Positions 2,853 to 55,449 of a stretch of DNA of 64,000 bases are shown here, in pieces. Position 1 is the first letter of the stretch. Every line of letters begins with the position of its first letter. The stretch comes from Rhizobium sp. NXC14 (GTDB taxonomy: Bacteria > Pseudomonadota > Alphaproteobacteria > Rhizobiales > Rhizobiaceae): positions 4,256,001-4,320,000 of the forward strand of contig NZ_CP021030.1 of assembly GCF_002117485.1 (NCBI RefSeq), given 5' to 3'. The notes under the pieces are model-generated. The model was not told where the DNA came from and made no database searches. It saw only the letters and a list, made by a program, of their open reading frames with translations. The translations under genes were made by a program, and so were the position numbers.

Positions 2853-2950
2853 AGCTGTCCCAAGGCCTTCACCTTACGGCGATTTAACCGGCCGCGCCGT
2901 TGCAGGCCCCTTGTTTGCAAAGGGCGAAGGCCTCATATTGTCTGCAGGCA

Positions 2951-3021
2951 TGCTGGAGCTCCGCAGCGGCGCCCGGGTCGAGAACCCCGACACCGTATCT
3001 CCTTCGGAGCTTGTAAGAGGA
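2951..3021 (+). promoter_or_regulatory. probable ybhL-type leader RNA
   Basis: The segment directly upstream of a YbhL-family gene contains nested inverted repeats: GCTG/CAGC arms flanking GAGCTCC, a GGTCG/CCGAC hairpin, and a CTCC-TTCG-GAG tetraloop hairpin that ends just before the Shine-Dalgarno AAGAGGA. A structured ybhL leader is known upstream of ybhL genes in alphaproteobacteria. Gene context and structure fit; membership of that family is inferred and was not tested against a covariance model. Confidence 0.45.
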
Positions 3022-6210: not shown

Positions 6211-8901
<2,691 letters not shown>

Positions 8902-26954: not shown

Positions 26955-27072
26955 TTTATCGCGGCCAATCCGCGACGAGCCACATGACTCCGAGCCGCCG
27001 ACCGGGACACCGAGATCCCGGAGGTCAACACCCGACAGCGCGATGCGCCCTCGGGTGCTTTTTGGCTTTGCG
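26955..27072 (+). ncRNA. possible small RNA or attenuator upstream of ffh
   Basis: Two hairpins lie in line: CCGGGA-N8-TCCCGG (about 27000-27020), and CACCCGA/TCGGGTG enclosing a GCGCGATGCGC palindrome (about 27026-27056) that runs into CTTTTTGG. The second has the form of a Rho-independent terminator about 90 bp before ffh. It could end a short independent RNA or act as a leader attenuator. No known family was recognised. Confidence 0.35.
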
Positions 27073-49777: not shown

Positions 49778-49891
49778 GTTTTTCTCTTGCACATCCCGAA
49801 GACACAGGTACGGAACGGACCCAAGCGGCAGCCTCCCAACGACCGGTTGGCGATGGTTCGCAAGGGCCAGGTGCTGATGAGGAGACGCCGC

Positions 49892-51502
49892 CTAGCGGGA
49901 TTTTCTTACGTCTTCGAATTTCAGATCAAAGCGCGCGAGATATTTGGCAAGCCGATCGGCGTCGTTGCTGCTCTTTTTTTCCAGGCGCGAGTTTGCAAAC
50001 AGTGCCCGGCCCGCGGCACTGGCGCTGACATGCTCCTGGCAGGTGCGAACAACGGCGGCGAGTTGAACGGCGTCGAAACGATCGAGGCTGTTAACGGCGT
50101 CCTCGCCGAGCAGATCGATGAGGATGTGGTCGGATGACCGGCGTGCCGAGGAGCCGCGCCAGGCGGCCTCTAGGCGTCGAATCTCGTCGTCGACTACCTC
50201 GACAGTGATTCGACCTTGAGGCGCGAGCGTTGCCATGCGCGTCACGGAGGCGGACAAGTCGCGGAAGTTCGCGCTCCAGAGAGCATCGGGGCCGGTCGCA
50301 AACGTGAGATAGCGGCTTCGAGCCTCCTTGTTGAAGGTCACATTCTGCCCTTCACGATCGAGGAAACGTCGAAGTTCGAAATCGAGATTGGGCTCGATAT
50401 CCTCCTTGCGCTCGCGCAACGCCGGCAGCTGGAAAGTCCATAGATTGAGCCGGGCAAAGAGATCTTCGCGGAATTGACCGTGGTGGACGGCTTCACCGAG
50501 ATCGCGATTGGTACCCGCCAGAAGCTGGAAGTCGGCGGAAACTTCGCGGTCCGCGCCGACGGGCAGGAAGCGCTTCTCCTCGATCGCCCGCAGGCACATG
50601 GCCTGTTCATCCAGGCCGAGTTCGCCGATCTCATCGAGAAAGAGCACACCCTTGTCCGCCGACTTCAGCAGGCCGGGCCGTTCGCCTGCCGCGCCGGTAA
50701 AGGCGCCTTTGACATGGCCGAAAAGCGCCGACATGGCGTGATCGCCGCGGAGCGTTGCGCAGTTGACCTCAACGAACGGACCGCTGACTTTTCGCTCGAC
50801 CCTCTTGAGTTCGTAGATGCGCTTGGCAAGTTGCGATTTTCCCGCGCCGGTCGGGCCGGTCAGCAAGACGGGTGCGGTAGAACGGATCACAACGCGCTCG
50901 ATCTCGTCGATCATGCGGTTGAAGGCGGGGTTTCGCGTCGAAATACCGGATTTCAGAAATGAGGCGGCATCGGCCTGTTCGGATGCGAAGCGCTTGGCGA
51001 TTTCGTCATAGCGCGAGAGATCAAGATCGATGATGCGATGGGTTCCCGCGAAATCCTGTCCCGGCTCGCGCTCGCGCGGCGGAGAGAGCTGCAGCAACCT
51101 GCCGGGGATGATGCGCGCTTCGGTCAGGAGGAACCAGCAGATCTGGGCGACATGGGTGCCGGTGGTGATGTTGACGAAATAGTCTTCGGCCTCGGGATCG
51201 AAACTGTAGTCCCGGGCAAAATCCCTGAGGCTCGTATAGACTTCGGAAAAGTCCCAGGGGTCCCGCAGATTGATGATGCGCTGGCGAACCTCCGTCGCGG
51301 GCGAAATCGTCTCGATATCCCTGATCACAGTCTTGGCCAGCCAGTCGGAATGGTTGTCGTGGATCAATTCCAGCCGATCGATAAAAAGACCGGCCTGTTG
51401 GCAAAGGCCGACGTTCGGCCGCCAGCGCGTCCATCGGTCTTCCCGCCGGCCCACGTCGAGAGTCGTTCCAAGAATGCTGATGGCGACTCGGCGCTTCATC
51501 AT
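49892..51502 (-). CDS. rtcR: sigma-54-dependent RNA repair activator RtcR
   Basis: A 536-residue enhancer-binding protein. The N-terminal half (1-~185) is the RtcR regulatory domain with a CARF fold (MKRRVAISILGTTLDVGRRE, EDYFVNITTGTHVAQICWFL). In the AAA+ domain, Walker A is LLTGPTGAGKSQ (216-223), the sigma-54 contact loop is GAFTGA (266-271), and Walker B is GVLFLDEIGEL. A C-terminal DNA-binding region follows. It is divergent from rsr-rtcB, which has a sigma-54 promoter. In enterics RtcR is auto-inhibited by the CARF domain and responds to RNA damage ends. Confidence 0.95.
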   Translation of the reverse strand: MMKRRVAISILGTTLDVGRREDRWTRWRPNVGLCQQAGLFIDRLELIHDNHSDWLAKTVIRDIETISPATEVRQRIINLRDPWDFSEVYTSLRDFARDYSFDPEAEDYFVNITTGTHVAQICWFLLTEARIIPGRLLQLSPPREREPGQDFAGTHRIIDLDLSRYDEIAKRFASEQADAASFLKSGISTRNPAFNRMIDEIERVVIRSTAPVLLTGPTGAGKSQLAKRIYELKRVERKVSGPFVEVNCATLRGDHAMSALFGHVKGAFTGAAGERPGLLKSADKGVLFLDEIGELGLDEQAMCLRAIEEKRFLPVGADREVSADFQLLAGTNRDLGEAVHHGQFREDLFARLNLWTFQLPALRERKEDIEPNLDFELRRFLDREGQNVTFNKEARSRYLTFATGPDALWSANFRDLSASVTRMATLAPQGRITVEVVDDEIRRLEAAWRGSSARRSSDHILIDLLGEDAVNSLDRFDAVQLAAVVRTCQEHVSASAAGRALFANSRLEKKSSNDADRLAKYLARFDLKFEDVRKSR

Positions 51503-51579
51503 TTATCCAAAATTATAAAATCCTATATCACCAGATAGACTATTCCGCCTTCTCGAACTTGGCAATTTGCAAGGCAGAA

Positions 51580-51608
51580 ATTCTCTTATAAATTTTAATA
51601 TTGAGAAT
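51580..51608. promoter_or_regulatory. possible RtcR binding site
   Basis: An inverted repeat ATTCTC-N17-GAGAAT in a very AT-rich stretch between rtcR and rsr, about 80-105 bp before the predicted rsr transcription start, a suitable distance for a sigma-54 enhancer site. Single occurrence; assignment is inference. Confidence 0.35.
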
Positions 51609-51657
51609 CAAAGGTTTATGATCTATTTCGCGGAAACCTTGTCGCGGATTCTAGAGA

Positions 51658-51674
51658 CTGGCACGCCACTTGAA
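51658..51674 (+). promoter_or_regulatory. sigma-54 promoter of rsr-yrl-rtcB
   Basis: CTGGCACG-CCAC-TTGAA matches the sigma-54 consensus in every -24 position and all but one of the -12 box, the same deviation seen in the glnK promoter here. Transcription would begin near 51685, 26 nt before the rsr ATG. This excludes the longer rsr reading frame that starts upstream of the promoter. Confidence 0.88.
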
Positions 51675-51710
51675 TTGTATTCGGCAGAACCAAATCAAAG
51701 AGGTGCTGCC

Positions 51711-53264
51711 ATGGTGAACAAGGCAATCTTCAGATCCTATTTCGGAAAGCTGCTCGCCGGCACGACGACGACCAACCACGAAGGCGCAGGAGCCTATGCT
51801 CTCTCGCCGCGTGAAGCCCTGGCGCAATATGCCGTCACCGGAACATTCGGCGACACGTTCTATGCGGATGCCGGGGAACAGCTCGATGCCGTGATGCGCC
51901 TTGGCGCGGAGGTCGAGCCGGAATTCCTGGCAAAGCTTGCGGTCTACGCGGCGGAGAAGGGCCATATGAAGGACATGCCGGTCATGCTGCTGGCGATGCT
52001 TTCGGGCCTCGAAAGCGATGCCTTTGCGCGGGCGTTTCCGCGTGTCGTGAAGAGCAGCAAGATGTTGCGCGGCTTCGTGCAGGTCATGCGGTCAGGTGTG
52101 ACTGGCCGAAAATCGCTCGGATCGCGGCCGAAGAAGATGGTGCAGGCCTGGTTCGACCGGGTGACGACGGAACAGTTTCTGCATGCGATAGTCGGCAATG
52201 ATCCGTCGCTGCCGGATGTGATCCGGATGGTACATCCGAAGCCGCGAGACGCGGAACGTCGTGCGCTCTACGCCTGGGCGATCGGCAAGCCGTATGACAT
52301 CGCCGCATTGCCGGCGGAGGTAAAGGCGTTCGAAGCATTCAAGCGCAATAACGGCTTGCCGCTGCCGCCCGTACCGTTCCAGATGCTGACCTCGCTTGGT
52401 CTGAGCAGGGAGCAGTGGTCGGAAATCGCCTTGAAGGGCTCGTGGCAGATGGTGCGCCAGAACCTCAACACCTTTGCTCGAAACGGCGTGTTCGAGGTGG
52501 ATGGCATGGCCGCACGGCTTGCTGCGCGGATCGCCGATCCGGAAGCGGTGCGCAAGGCGCGTGTCTTCCCCTACCAGTTGATGGTGGCGTGGCATATGGC
52601 GAACCGGTCGGTTCCGGCTGTCGTTGCGGATGCTGTGCAGGATGCGATGGAGGTGGCAGTCTCCAGCGTGCCGACGATCGGCGGTAATGTCGTGGTCTGC
52701 CCGGATGTCTCCGGCTCCATGTCGTCCCCCGTCACCGGCTACCGAAAGGGCGCGACATCAACCGTCCGCTGCATCGATGTCGCAGCACTCGTGGCTGCGT
52801 CGTTCCTGCGGCGTAACCGGCAGACGCGTATCATCCCGTTCGAACAGGACGTCGTGAACGTCCAGCTGAACGGGCGTGACAGCGTGATGACCAATGCGGC
52901 GAAGCTCGCGGCAGTCGGCGGTGGCGGAACGAACTGCTCCGCGCCGCTGCGGCTGCTGGCAAAGGAGAAAGCGGCGGTCGACCTCGTGCTCTTCGTCTCG
53001 GACAACCAGTCCTGGATGGATGCGCGGGGGCACGGCCAGGCGACCGCGATGATGGCTGAATGGGCGTGGATCAAGAGGCTGAACCCGGCGGCGAAGCTGG
53101 TCTGCCTCGACATCCAGCCCTACGTCCAGACGCCGGCAGCGGGAGAGGACGTGCTGAATATCGGCGGCTTCTCGGATGCCGTCTACGGAGCCATCACCAG
53201 CTTCGCAGCCGGCAAGTCCGGCCCGGGCGAATGGGTTCGCAGGATCGAGGCGACCGATCTTTGA
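51711..53264 (+). CDS. rsr: Ro60-like RNA-binding protein Rsr (TROVE + vWA)
   Basis: A 517-residue Ro/SSA orthologue. The TROVE domain of HEAT-like helices (residues ~10-320) forms a ring that binds single-stranded RNA ends inside and Y RNA outside: GTFGDTFYADAGEQLDAVMR, FPRVVKSSKMLRGFVQVMRS. The C-terminal von Willebrand A domain has an intact MIDAS, CPDVSGSMSS (~331), plus GGGGTNCSAPLRLL and LFVSDNQSW. The start has AGAGG 8 bp upstream and lies 26 bp after the sigma-54 start. Followed by three Y-like RNAs and rtcB. Confidence 0.94.
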   Translation: MVNKAIFRSYFGKLLAGTTTTNHEGAGAYALSPREALAQYAVTGTFGDTFYADAGEQLDAVMRLGAEVEPEFLAKLAVYAAEKGHMKDMPVMLLAMLSGLESDAFARAFPRVVKSSKMLRGFVQVMRSGVTGRKSLGSRPKKMVQAWFDRVTTEQFLHAIVGNDPSLPDVIRMVHPKPRDAERRALYAWAIGKPYDIAALPAEVKAFEAFKRNNGLPLPPVPFQMLTSLGLSREQWSEIALKGSWQMVRQNLNTFARNGVFEVDGMAARLAARIADPEAVRKARVFPYQLMVAWHMANRSVPAVVADAVQDAMEVAVSSVPTIGGNVVVCPDVSGSMSSPVTGYRKGATSTVRCIDVAALVAASFLRRNRQTRIIPFEQDVVNVQLNGRDSVMTNAAKLAAVGGGGTNCSAPLRLLAKEKAAVDLVLFVSDNQSWMDARGHGQATAMMAEWAWIKRLNPAAKLVCLDIQPYVQTPAAGEDVLNIGGFSDAVYGAITSFAAGKSGPGEWVRRIEATDL

Positions 53265-53299
53265 AATTGCTTCGCGCCGCCAGTGAACGGCGCGAGGCA

Positions 53300-53435
53300 C
53301 CGTGACGAATGCCGGATGGAACTACAGACTGTCACTCTCCAGGTCGCGGGTTCGAATCCCGTCGGGTCCCCCAAAAAACAAGGACCCGTAGCTCAGCGGA
53401 TAGAGCGGGTGTTCCACCACATCTCGTCGTCACGG
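53300..53435 (+). ncRNA. Y RNA-like RNA 1 with a complete permuted tRNA module
   Basis: The ends CCGTGACGA and TCGTCACGG pair (9 bp) to give the Ro-binding stem, with the bacterial Y RNA motif GNCGAANG as GACGAATG at 53304-53311. Inside, in order, are an anticodon-loop-like CTGTCAC; a T-arm GCGGG-TTCGAAT-CCCGT; acceptor 3' strand CGGGTCC plus CCCA; a short A-rich loop; acceptor 5' strand GGACCCG (perfect 7-bp match); TA; and D-arm GCTC-AGCGGATA-GAGC. This is a tRNA circularly permuted so that its ends fall at the anticodon arm, as in YrlA-type tRNA mimics. Confidence 0.85.
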
Positions 53436-53459
53436 ACCAATCGAAAGACATGTTAAAGA

Positions 53460-53581
53460 CATGGCGAATGCCGGGAAAACTACATCGGTAATCCCGGGCG
53501 CGGGTTCAAGGCCCGCCTTGTCGCCCGAATCCCGAAAGGGAGAAGGATGCGCAAGATGTTTCCTCAGGACTTGTCGCCATG
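53460..53581 (+). ncRNA. Y RNA-like RNA 2, reduced tRNA mimic
   Basis: End stem CATGGCGA/TCGCCATG (8 bp), motif GGCGAATG, and the shared blocks CGAATGCCGG and AACTACA. The T-arm GCGGG-TTCAAGG-CCCGC is present. The acceptor-like stem CTTG(T)CGC/GCGCAAG is imperfect and encloses a TCCC-GAAA-GGGA hairpin; the D-arm is reduced to TCC-TCA-GGA. It lies 24 bp after RNA 1 and 7 bp before RNA 3. Confidence 0.72.
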
Positions 53582-53588
53582 ACGAGAA

Positions 53589-53721
53589 TTGCAGCGGCGA
53601 ATGCCGGACGAAACTACAGCCTCCGTATCGAGGTGGCCTGACAGGTTCGACTCCTGTCCCGGCAGCGCTCTCTGGCACGAGCGGGGCCACTCGGTTTCGT
53701 CCACCTTTGTCGCCGCTGCAA
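53589..53721 (+). ncRNA. Y RNA-like RNA 3
   Basis: The longest end stem of the three, TTGCAGCGGCGA/TCGCCGCTGCAA (12 bp), with GGCGAATG and the shared CGAATGCCGG and AACTACA blocks. The T-arm is perfect (ACAGG-TTCGACT-CCTGT). The acceptor-like stem is GGC/GCC plus CGCTC/GAGCG around an AG/GG internal loop. I could not assign a convincing D-arm. Confidence 0.72.
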
Positions 53722-53725
53722 AAAT

Positions 53726-53756
53726 GCCTGGCGTCCGGGAAAATCGTCGCCCAGGC
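53726..53756 (+). other. hairpin between Y RNA 3 and rtcB
   Basis: GCCTGGCG pairs with CGCCCAGGC (one bulged base) around a 14-nt loop. No T-run follows, so it is more likely a processing or stability hairpin at the RNA 3 boundary than a terminator. Confidence 0.45.
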
Positions 53757-53804
53757 GAGCATGAAACGTAACCGAGAAGAAGGACTGCAGACGCAGAAAA
53801 GAAG

Positions 53805-55229
53805 ATGACCGAGATAATGAGCGGACAGGATCTGATCGACGCAGGCATGAGCCAGGGCAAGTGGTTTCGTCCGGCTCTCGATGCGGCCAACAGGGTTTTG
53901 AGCCAGGGCGGTTCGGCCGCGGAGGCGCTTGAAGCAGCAAGGGCTTTTCAGCCGGGGCCGACGCTCGCCCTGAGATCGGATAACGATATCGAGATCTATT
54001 CCAATATCCGCGCCGAGAACGCCTTCGAGCAGGACAATGTCGAAAAGGTCAATGCTACGATGCGGGCGCTGGTGCGCACGCCGGTCGTGCGGGCTGCGGC
54101 GATCATGCCGGACGCCTGCCCGGCCGGGCCGGTCGGCACCATTCCGGTTGGCGGTGTCGTGGCATCCGAGGCGATCCATCCGGGGATGCACTCGGCTGAC
54201 ATCTGCTGCTCCATGGCAATCTCGATCTTTCCGGATGTCGATCCGAAATCGCTTCTCGACGCCGTGCATGCGGTAACGCATTTCGGGCCTGGTGGCCGCC
54301 CGCGCGGTGCGCAGATCAAGCCTTCCGAAGCGACACTGTCTGCCTTCCAGCAGAACCCGTTCCTGCGGGACGGGGCGCTGAGCGCCGGCATCGAACATTT
54401 CGGCACGCAGGGCGACGGCAATCATTTCGCTTTTGTCGGAACGATAAAATCGACCGGCGAGACCGCGCTCGTCACCCATCACGGGTCGCGTGCACCGGGT
54501 GCCCGGCTCTACGACAAGGGCATGAAGGCCGCGAACCGCTTTCGCGAGCAGATCTCGCCGGAAACCCTGCGGGACAATGCATGGATTCCCGCCGACACCG
54601 AAGAGGGCGACCTCTACTGGTCGGCTCTGCAGGCCATCCGGCAGTGGACGAGGGAAAACCATTATGTCGTGCATGACATGGCGGCAAAGGCACTCTCGGC
54701 GAAGGTGGCCGATCGTTTCTGGAACGAGCACAATTTCGTTTTCCGGAAATCGGACGGCCTCTTCTATCACGGCAAGGGAGCGACGCCGGCCTTCGACAAA
54801 TGGGCGGAGGATGCCACCGATCTGACGATCATTCCGCTGAACATGGCGGAACCGATCCTGATCGTCCGCGGCTCCAACGCCGTCCATGGCCTCGGCTTCT
54901 CGCCACACGGCGCCGGCCGTAATTTCTCGCGCAGCGCCCATATCAGGCGCCTGGCGGAAGAATATGGCGCGGATGCCCGCGGCTTGAGCCCGAACAACAT
55001 GGCGGCGATCATGGAAAAGGAGACGGCGGGTCTGGACGTTCGCTTCTTCTCGGGCTTTGCCGACGTCTCGGAACTGCCGAGCGCCTACAAGTCCGCCGCC
55101 AATGTGCGTGCGCAGATTGAGCACTACGGTCTGGCCGAGGTGGTCGACGAGGTCGTTCCGTATGGAAGCATCATGGCCGGCGACTGGCAGAAGGACGCAC
55201 CCTGGCGTCGCAAACGGGAACGCCGTTGA
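53805..55229 (+). CDS. rtcB: RNA ligase RtcB
   Basis: A 474-residue GTP-dependent ligase joining 2',3'-cyclic-phosphate or 3'-phosphate ends to 5'-OH ends. Mn2+ and nucleotide residues are in place: Asp132 and Cys134 in HSADICCSM, GDGNHF (204-208), THHGSR (224-228), NEHNFVF, and the guanylylated His of FSPHGAGRNFSR (~368). The first motif reads ADICCS instead of the usual GxDIGCG, and the protein is longer than E. coli RtcB, suggesting a divergent subfamily. An ATG four codons on is possible. No rtcA follows. Confidence 0.94.
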   Translation: MTEIMSGQDLIDAGMSQGKWFRPALDAANRVLSQGGSAAEALEAARAFQPGPTLALRSDNDIEIYSNIRAENAFEQDNVEKVNATMRALVRTPVVRAAAIMPDACPAGPVGTIPVGGVVASEAIHPGMHSADICCSMAISIFPDVDPKSLLDAVHAVTHFGPGGRPRGAQIKPSEATLSAFQQNPFLRDGALSAGIEHFGTQGDGNHFAFVGTIKSTGETALVTHHGSRAPGARLYDKGMKAANRFREQISPETLRDNAWIPADTEEGDLYWSALQAIRQWTRENHYVVHDMAAKALSAKVADRFWNEHNFVFRKSDGLFYHGKGATPAFDKWAEDATDLTIIPLNMAEPILIVRGSNAVHGLGFSPHGAGRNFSRSAHIRRLAEEYGADARGLSPNNMAAIMEKETAGLDVRFFSGFADVSELPSAYKSAANVRAQIEHYGLAEVVDEVVPYGSIMAGDWQKDAPWRRKRERR

Positions 55230-55284
55230 TTGCCTCCAGTGCTCCGGCCTTTGCCGTATTGGCAAGGGCCGCAGCACGATACGT

Positions 55285-55300
55285 GCGGCAATTCTGCCGC
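55285..55300 (+). terminator. possible terminator after rtcB
   Basis: A GCGGCA-ATTC-TGCCGC hairpin about 55 bp after the rtcB stop. The following sequence is only moderately T-rich, so function as a terminator is uncertain. Confidence 0.4.
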
Positions 55301-55449
55301 CGGTTCCTATTACTTTATCAGGGCCTAAGTATCCGCATCTCTTCGCATTATCTAAAAACTAACGTTGCCTCGTAACCACTCCTAAAGCCAACTGTGGCAC
55401 CTTGTCGGCTATCGAAATTTGCTTCCAAATTTTTCGGCTGGGGTTTGTT

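Follow-up and report, generated by a model that had tools for sequence, protein, structure and literature searches.

In Salmonella, the rsr-yrlBA-rtcBA operon lies behind a sigma-54 promoter from which the gene for its regulator, RtcR, diverges, and rsr, the Y RNAs and rtcB follow in that order, as described in the accessible parts of PMC7790460 and PMC9879122. The Y RNA YrlA tethers the protein Rsr to PNPase and is a substrate of DusA/TruB, according to the available part of a review (PMC8394870). We analysed a stretch of 64,000 nucleotides (nt) of Rhizobium sp. NXC14 (contig NZ_CP021030.1, positions 4,256,001 to 4,320,000; the window), in which the same gene order is found with 540 nt of non-coding DNA between rsr and rtcB. 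The original prediction, made from the sequence of the window, had proposed an RtcR- and sigma-54-controlled locus of the Salmonella type with three structured units in this gap, and both proposals hold. We consider it probable that the locus represents a form of the RtcR-controlled RNA-repair operon that lacks RtcA and is patchily distributed, and in which class-specific heads resembling transfer RNA (tRNA) serve as adaptors.

The units were counted with a scanner for the stem, which looked for P1 containing GAAUGC or a near match, for P2, and for either GUCG or GUUG in the 3' part, and which was designed after inspection of 8 of the 45 rsr-rtcB gaps to which it was applied. These 45 loci comprise 43 from a scan of named genomes of close relatives, one locus from a further genome and the window itself. 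The gaps measure 520-1205 nt; L058, whose genes were matched in part, has an overlong gap of 959 nt owing to the partial match of its rsr. The scanner found 192 units, against a mean of 3.4 in shuffled gaps (20 rounds) and one on the reverse strand, and a covariance model of one class, epsilon, recovered eight units that it had missed. The resulting census, whose figures are lower bounds and which leaves out L054 (its contig ends ahead of the array), contains at least 200 units in 44 loci, three to seven per locus (12 loci with three, 8 with four, 16 with five, 4 with six and 4 with seven). Clustering gave seven classes: alpha and delta occur in all 44 loci, epsilon in 29, beta in 24, gamma and zeta in 20 each, and eta in 4. 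Along the array, alpha comes first, then beta and/or gamma, then delta, epsilon and zeta; L025-L027, L038, L056 and L060 depart from this order. The array of the window is alpha-gamma-delta, and all three of its units fold better than their shuffles (z scores -3.0, -3.2 and -4.7). Conservation, covariation and the shuffles rule out an origin of the units by chance or from tRNA pseudogenes. Mechanical open reading frames (ORFs) overlap the rsr-rtcB gap, but its conserved feature is RNA structure.

By their predicted structures, all array RNAs are built on one common Rsr-type P1/P2 stem, and their heads differ by class. The YrlA-type stem with CGAAUGC..ACUAC and a tRNA-like head is fully matched by alpha and partially by gamma and delta. 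A covariance search of the gap, which the original prediction had suggested, did return three matches to the Rfam YrlA model (RF02553; 64.0, 34.2 and 24.7 bits), all of them under its gathering score (69 bits), which six units of relatives exceed (75.9-95.6 bits). The third window unit is not significant by YrlA alone, as a genomic tandem tRNA-Asp pair scores 25.2, and the model gave a match at E<=1 in 13 of 14 control genomes. Array units also show weak Rfam matches to tmRNA_permuted.

Alpha is, as far as its alignment can tell, a Ro-type stem carrying a tRNA opened at the anticodon. The window copy has a T-arm (53346-53362), an acceptor (53363-53369 with 53382-53388), CCA at 53371-53373 and a D-arm (53391-53406). 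The alignment covers 26 of 30 non-redundant units; among the four left unaligned, two have a long acceptor loop carrying N+CCA and two are second copies without it. The aligned units have the T-arm, the 7-base-pair acceptor and a D-loop containing GG, with UA and the D-stem GCUC/GAGC each in 26/26; the linker ahead of the acceptor 5' strand is 4-8 nt long and ends in U in 24 of the 26. Thirteen of the 35 pairs are doubly changed, and six of the seven acceptor pairs are changed on both sides. A recent origin of alpha by copying of a genomic tRNA was rejected: its best matches elsewhere in the genome are pieces of 24-35 nt (best E 0.003), and of the seven places checked, six lie within tRNA genes (one Asn, two Asp and three Arg) and one does not.

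Epsilon, which is absent from the window, corresponds in its consensus fold to a tRNA cloverleaf opened within the D-loop. From 28 aligned units RNAalifold, unaided, predicted P1, P2, a GAGC/GCUC stem and an anticodon-like arm. A single nucleotide after the D-stem, as in tRNA, a 5-nt variable loop and a 5-base-pair T-arm with a 7-nt loop are present in 28/28; an 8-base-pair acceptor-like hairpin directly abuts the T-arm and is followed by UA (26/28) or UG (2/28). Nineteen of 41 pairs are doubly changed, and none of 500 shuffles reaches any of five covariation measures. In delta (n=29), the T-loop UUCGACU is invariant (29/29) and is accompanied by a CGCUC-UCUGGCAC-GAGCG arm, whose GG occupies the same loop positions as in the commonest D-loop of alpha; a linker replaces the acceptor. 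Delta thus looks like a tRNA elbow alone, a T-arm plus a presumed D-arm with no acceptor stem, and 12 of its 35 pairs are doubly changed, one measure being reached by 2/500 shuffles. For alpha, delta and epsilon at most 2/500 shuffles reach any measure, and slid controls also run in support. Gamma (n=19; 22 pairs in the alignment) has the Ro-type stem and a T-arm but no D-arm; its number of pair types is reached by 408/500 shuffles and the other four measures by none. An acceptor-like hairpin follows the T-arm in the single fold of the window's gamma; since the consensus lacks it, we do not claim it for the class. No T-loop was found in zeta (0/20) or eta (0/4).

The tRNA detector ARAGORN gave concordant results once the units were re-ordered. 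In native order it called none of 28 epsilon units and, among 26 alpha units, none by default and one at the 95% threshold. With alpha circularised, cut at the acceptor and an intron allowed, it reported a tRNA in 26/26. When the stem of epsilon was excised and the D-loop closed, as needed because ARAGORN permits no insert in the D-loop, calls rose to 14/28 by default and 25/28 at 95%, with none in shuffles (20 rounds). Scanning every third rotation with an intron allowed gave 26/26 for alpha, 7/17 for beta and 5/28 for epsilon, with none in one shuffle each, and no call for the aligned sets of gamma (0/19), delta (0/29) and zeta (0/19); over all scanner units, the rotation scan gave 47/47, 15/28 and 5/29 for alpha, beta and epsilon. 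The calls follow class, so the tRNA reading is specific to the classes keeping all arms.

A different account takes the units for RNase P or tRNA-processing signals that part rsr and rtcB within their transcript rather than for working Y RNAs. The acceptor of alpha, the CCA after it (19/26) and the short linker ending in U would suit such marks, but a single element would suffice, whereas the units form separate conserved classes whose Ro-type stem covaries, and the acceptor-like arm of epsilon is capped by a loop of 3-5 nt and has no CCA end. We regard this account as improbable.

The window array itself appears to be a shortened one. Two stretches of its tail, 53700-53731 and 53734-53810, align with the gap of L059 (R. 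aethiopicum), at positions 440-472 and 687-763 there. The L059 segment between them holds almost a whole epsilon unit and the greater part of a zeta unit, which by this comparison the window lineage has deleted. The triplication seen by the original prediction is therefore better described as three different classes left in the deleted form of a longer array. Loss of two units in the window lineage and variation between three and seven units across relatives might be expected of redundant copies that raise Y RNA dosage and whose heads differ neutrally. Yet alpha and delta stay distinct, with conserved heads, in 44/44 loci, whereas a neutral set would be expected to drift or homogenise, and this explanation seems to us the least credible of all. 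Conservation class by class makes a division of labour among the RNAs, suggested by the original prediction, more plausible; the predicted heads suggest that tether or decoy roles fit better than the guide role.

By analogy with Salmonella and Deinococcus, as presented in the accessible parts of PMC7790460 and PMC8394870, tRNA breakage would activate RtcR and hence the operon, supplying Rsr-Y RNA complexes and RtcB for resealing. Broken tRNAs with 2',3'-cyclic phosphate ends would bind the CARF domain of RtcR, which would then fire the sigma-54 promoter at 51659, where the pattern is present, to produce a single rsr-alpha-gamma-delta-rtcB transcript. The shared P1/P2 stem would hold each RNA on Rsr, and the differing heads would draw tRNA-recognising proteins (PNPase, tRNA-processing or tRNA-modifying enzymes) to this protein or act as a gate to its central hole, while RtcB would reseal the broken RNAs. 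The set can provisionally be ordered by opening: at the anticodon in alpha and beta, in the D-loop in epsilon, elbow-only in delta and T-arm-only in gamma. With one handle and tRNA bodies opened in these ways, the heads would show partners different faces of a tRNA. The fuller proposal, in which each head of a modular set of tRNA-mimic adaptors recruits another tRNA-recognising enzyme in an RtcA-independent response to tRNA damage, on a cassette that moves between rhizobial genomes, is put forward tentatively.

The main rival to adaptors is a decoy role, in which the RNAs serve as baits for enzymes that cleave or modify tRNA, such as the anticodon nucleases of phages or competitors, within a defence or anti-toxin module, and RtcB mends whatever is cut nonetheless. 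Mimicry of tRNA with differing parts retained would serve such a role, as would a patchy, site-changing cassette (8 of 37 genomes of the genus; flanking genes of the window at 2 of 44 other loci) with a few defence-type genes nearby (AbiE, PDC-S01, Mza), and the Salmonella authors suggested a competitive-inhibitor role for YrlA in the accessible part of PMC7790460. However, alpha, beta and delta lack an anticodon loop (epsilon has an anticodon-like arm), a bait would not need a Ro-type stem, and defence matches are a small minority among the 125 flanking ORFs. In Salmonella, too, YrlA fragments were not observed when tRNAs were cleaved, as far as the same part of that paper reports. We judge decoys unlikely, though a better candidate than processing marks.

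Several observations weigh against the adaptor reading of an RNA-repair operon. Rsr is only remotely similar to its structurally characterised counterpart (67 bits over 517 amino acids), and genome G553 has no rsr match though it carries an array and rtcB. RtcA (PF01137) was not found in the NXC14 genome. No rotation tried gave a tRNA call for gamma (0/20), delta (0/44), zeta (0/20) or eta (0/4). In alpha, N+CCA follows the acceptor in only 19/26 aligned units (21/30 non-redundant ones), and the discriminator base is variable.

With RtcA missing, the system is not complete, as the original prediction had called it. RtcA was found in 2 of 15 other genomes with a TROVE protein, G092 and G247. 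There rtcA lies close downstream and RtcB differs from the window type: identity to the window over the matched part is 61-63% for RtcR and 53% for Rsr, but only 25-27% for RtcB. It was not found in the nine genomes with RtcR and window-type RtcB (seven of the genus, G251 and G158), nor in four TROVE genomes without an RtcR match in the fetched stretch. Induction in truA mutants of Salmonella depends on RtcA, according to the accessible part of PMC7790460. Since this branch lacks RtcA, it may have a different route to sensing or producing cyclic ends.

The protein genes agree with the operon type (Table 1). RtcR reaches 816 bits with NCBIfam NF038308 (equivalog cut-off 650) and matches the sensor domain PF06956 (E 2.7e-79) and the AAA+ domain PF00158, confirming the predicted CARF-AAA+ activator. 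The TROVE-vWA protein foreseen behind the sigma-54 promoter was also recovered: as a whole protein, Rsr passes both Pfam cut-offs (PF05731, 29.2 against 23 bits; PF25045, 59.9 against 27.7), with TROVE scoring only 20.3 bits in a six-frame genome search, and it matches Deinococcus radiodurans Rsr (2nvo) at E 1.4e-17. It misses the equivalog cut-off of NF041674 by far (75.7 against 900 bits). Its start is ATG 51711, where MVNKAIF occurs in 8/8 aligned sequences (window and seven relatives). RtcB is the only PF01139 match in the whole genome (100 bits, cut-off 27) and stays below the NCBIfam RtcB equivalog cut-offs. Its translation carries D-x-x-C, GDGNHF, HHGSR, HGKGAT and HGAGR, which we take to be the catalytic Cys/His motifs.

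In the divergent rtcR-rsr region of about 210 nt, the pattern TGGCAC-N5-TTG (sixth base C or T) begins 50-54 nt ahead of the rsr ATG in 43/45 loci, so that a predicted sigma-54 promoter upstream of rsr, the mark of the RtcR regulon, is present as a sequence pattern. The strict pattern was not found in L047 and L062 among the 45 loci. These two loci are also those with alpha units of 177 nt, which have a long acceptor-loop insert. Conserved TATCCA, TATA and GATA blocks next to the start of rtcR are candidate RtcR sites.

Table 1. Features of the rtcR-rsr-rtcB locus (positions in the window)
Feature	Positions	Strand	Basis
rtcR, CARF-AAA+ sigma-54 activator	49892..51502	-	NF038308, PF06956, PADLOC RtcR--CARF_AAA_HTH model
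Candidate RtcR enhancer region, TATCCA..TATA..GATA blocks	51503..51544		Alignment of 45 rtcR-rsr intergenic regions
Predicted sigma-54 -24/-12 promoter, TGGCACGCCACTTG	51659..51672	+	Pattern and spacing kept across loci
rsr, Ro60-like TROVE + vWA, 517 amino acids	51711..53264	+	Pfam domains, start alignment, 2nvo comparison
GC-rich hairpin ahead of first Y RNA	53271..53298	+	By eye, 8 gap sequences
Y RNA alpha	53300..53435	+	Rfam YrlA, covariation, ARAGORN after re-ordering, fold
Y RNA gamma	53459..53582	+	YrlA 34.2 bits, alignment n=19, fold
Y RNA delta	53589..53721	+	Alignment n=29, T-loop, covariation
Remnant, epsilon start joined to zeta 3' end (apparent deletion scar)	53722..53757	+	L059 comparison
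rtcB, divergent subtype with usual Cys and His motifs	53805..55229	+	PF01139, alignment to archaeal RtcB

The cassette is patchily distributed and occupies differing sites. Rsr is present in 8 of 37 genomes of the genus, this one included, and the 43 scan loci come from Rhizobium, Neorhizobium, Pararhizobium, Shinella, Ensifer/Sinorhizobium, Allorhizobium, Endobacterium, Brucella, Roseibium and Rhizobiales isolates. The order rtcR-rsr-gap-rtcB is kept in 44/45 loci, the remaining one (L054) running off its contig. The six flanking genes of the window adjoin only 2 of the 44 other loci. Plasmids are represented too: Rsr matches 75 plasmid records (43 from Rhizobium; 29/75 less than 60% identical), and alpha-like DNA occurs in 52. 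Plasmid NLR16a p3 had been considered as an independent insertion and was rejected, having the same flanking genes as the window. In genome G009, flanks 92-93% identical enclose 283 nt in place of window positions 49788-55347, an empty site beside tRNA-Gly. The 283 nt (L118 1901-2183) have no match to the window. Six of the 45 cassettes end within 300 base pairs of a tRNA gene; no long repeat of the tRNA end was noticed by eye at the cassettes.

A flank scan of 125 ORFs (123 of 155 mechanical flank ORFs and 2 of L119) gave 103 Pfam families and few defence models (AbiE, PDC-S01, Mza); because these are few, a defence-island origin is not claimed. In G553 (L119 4452-9881), roughly five array units and rtcB adjoin defence genes of the MzaD/MzaE type. 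An array without rsr suggests that Rsr may be dispensable in some cases, or that this locus is decaying. The epsilon model matched 28 of 385 genomes of other Alphaproteobacteria at E<=0.001. Three weak matches that were inspected (34-37 bits) proved to be tandem tRNA-Ile/tRNA-Ala pairs, and we therefore treat the matches in G092, G072 and G857 alone as strong.

Myxococcus phage Mx1 encodes an Rsr (L145 4001-5650) 45.5% identical to that of the window; no YrlA match was found near it, and the epsilon model matched only weakly (16.9 bits at 7132-7263). Elsewhere in the window, a ybhL leader (2945-3014) and an ffh small RNA (27014-27065) match Rfam above cut-off.

If correct, the adaptor reading would mean that one RNA-binding protein could recruit several tRNA-handling enzymes. 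The set of heads would amount to a natural dissection of tRNA, bearing on Y RNA roles beyond PNPase tethering and predicting class-specific partners such as elbow binders and acceptor binders. With its D-loop opening, epsilon would give the handle a second circularly permuted tRNA fold, and the consistent lack of RtcA in the branch raises the question of how RtcR switches on without the cyclase required in Salmonella. Arrays of up to seven units, elbow-only or D-loop-opened heads and an RtcA-less branch are undescribed among the literature matches listed, a provisional statement as these do not cover the primary Y RNA papers.

The operon type and the tRNA-like head of YrlA were already known. 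The locus differs from the Salmonella operon in its divergent RtcB and Rsr, in three Y RNA classes with up to seven units in relatives, and in rtcA, found neither at the locus nor elsewhere in the genome. With YrlA (RF02553; structure 6CU1 as cited in the accessible part of PMC8394870) the arrays share the Ro-type P1/P2 stem. They also share with it, in alpha and part of beta, an anticodon-opened head made up of T-like, D-like and acceptor-like arms. Departures from YrlA are the longer acceptor loop of alpha, which in most units carries N+CCA, the missing acceptor of delta, the missing D-arm of gamma, the D-loop opening of epsilon and the missing T-loop of zeta and eta. In permuted tRNA genes and two-piece transfer-messenger RNA (tmRNA), the 3' half of the tRNA precedes the 5' half, and the array heads likewise place the 3' half first; here, however, the breakpoint bears a Ro-type stem, and alpha is without a decoding anticodon.

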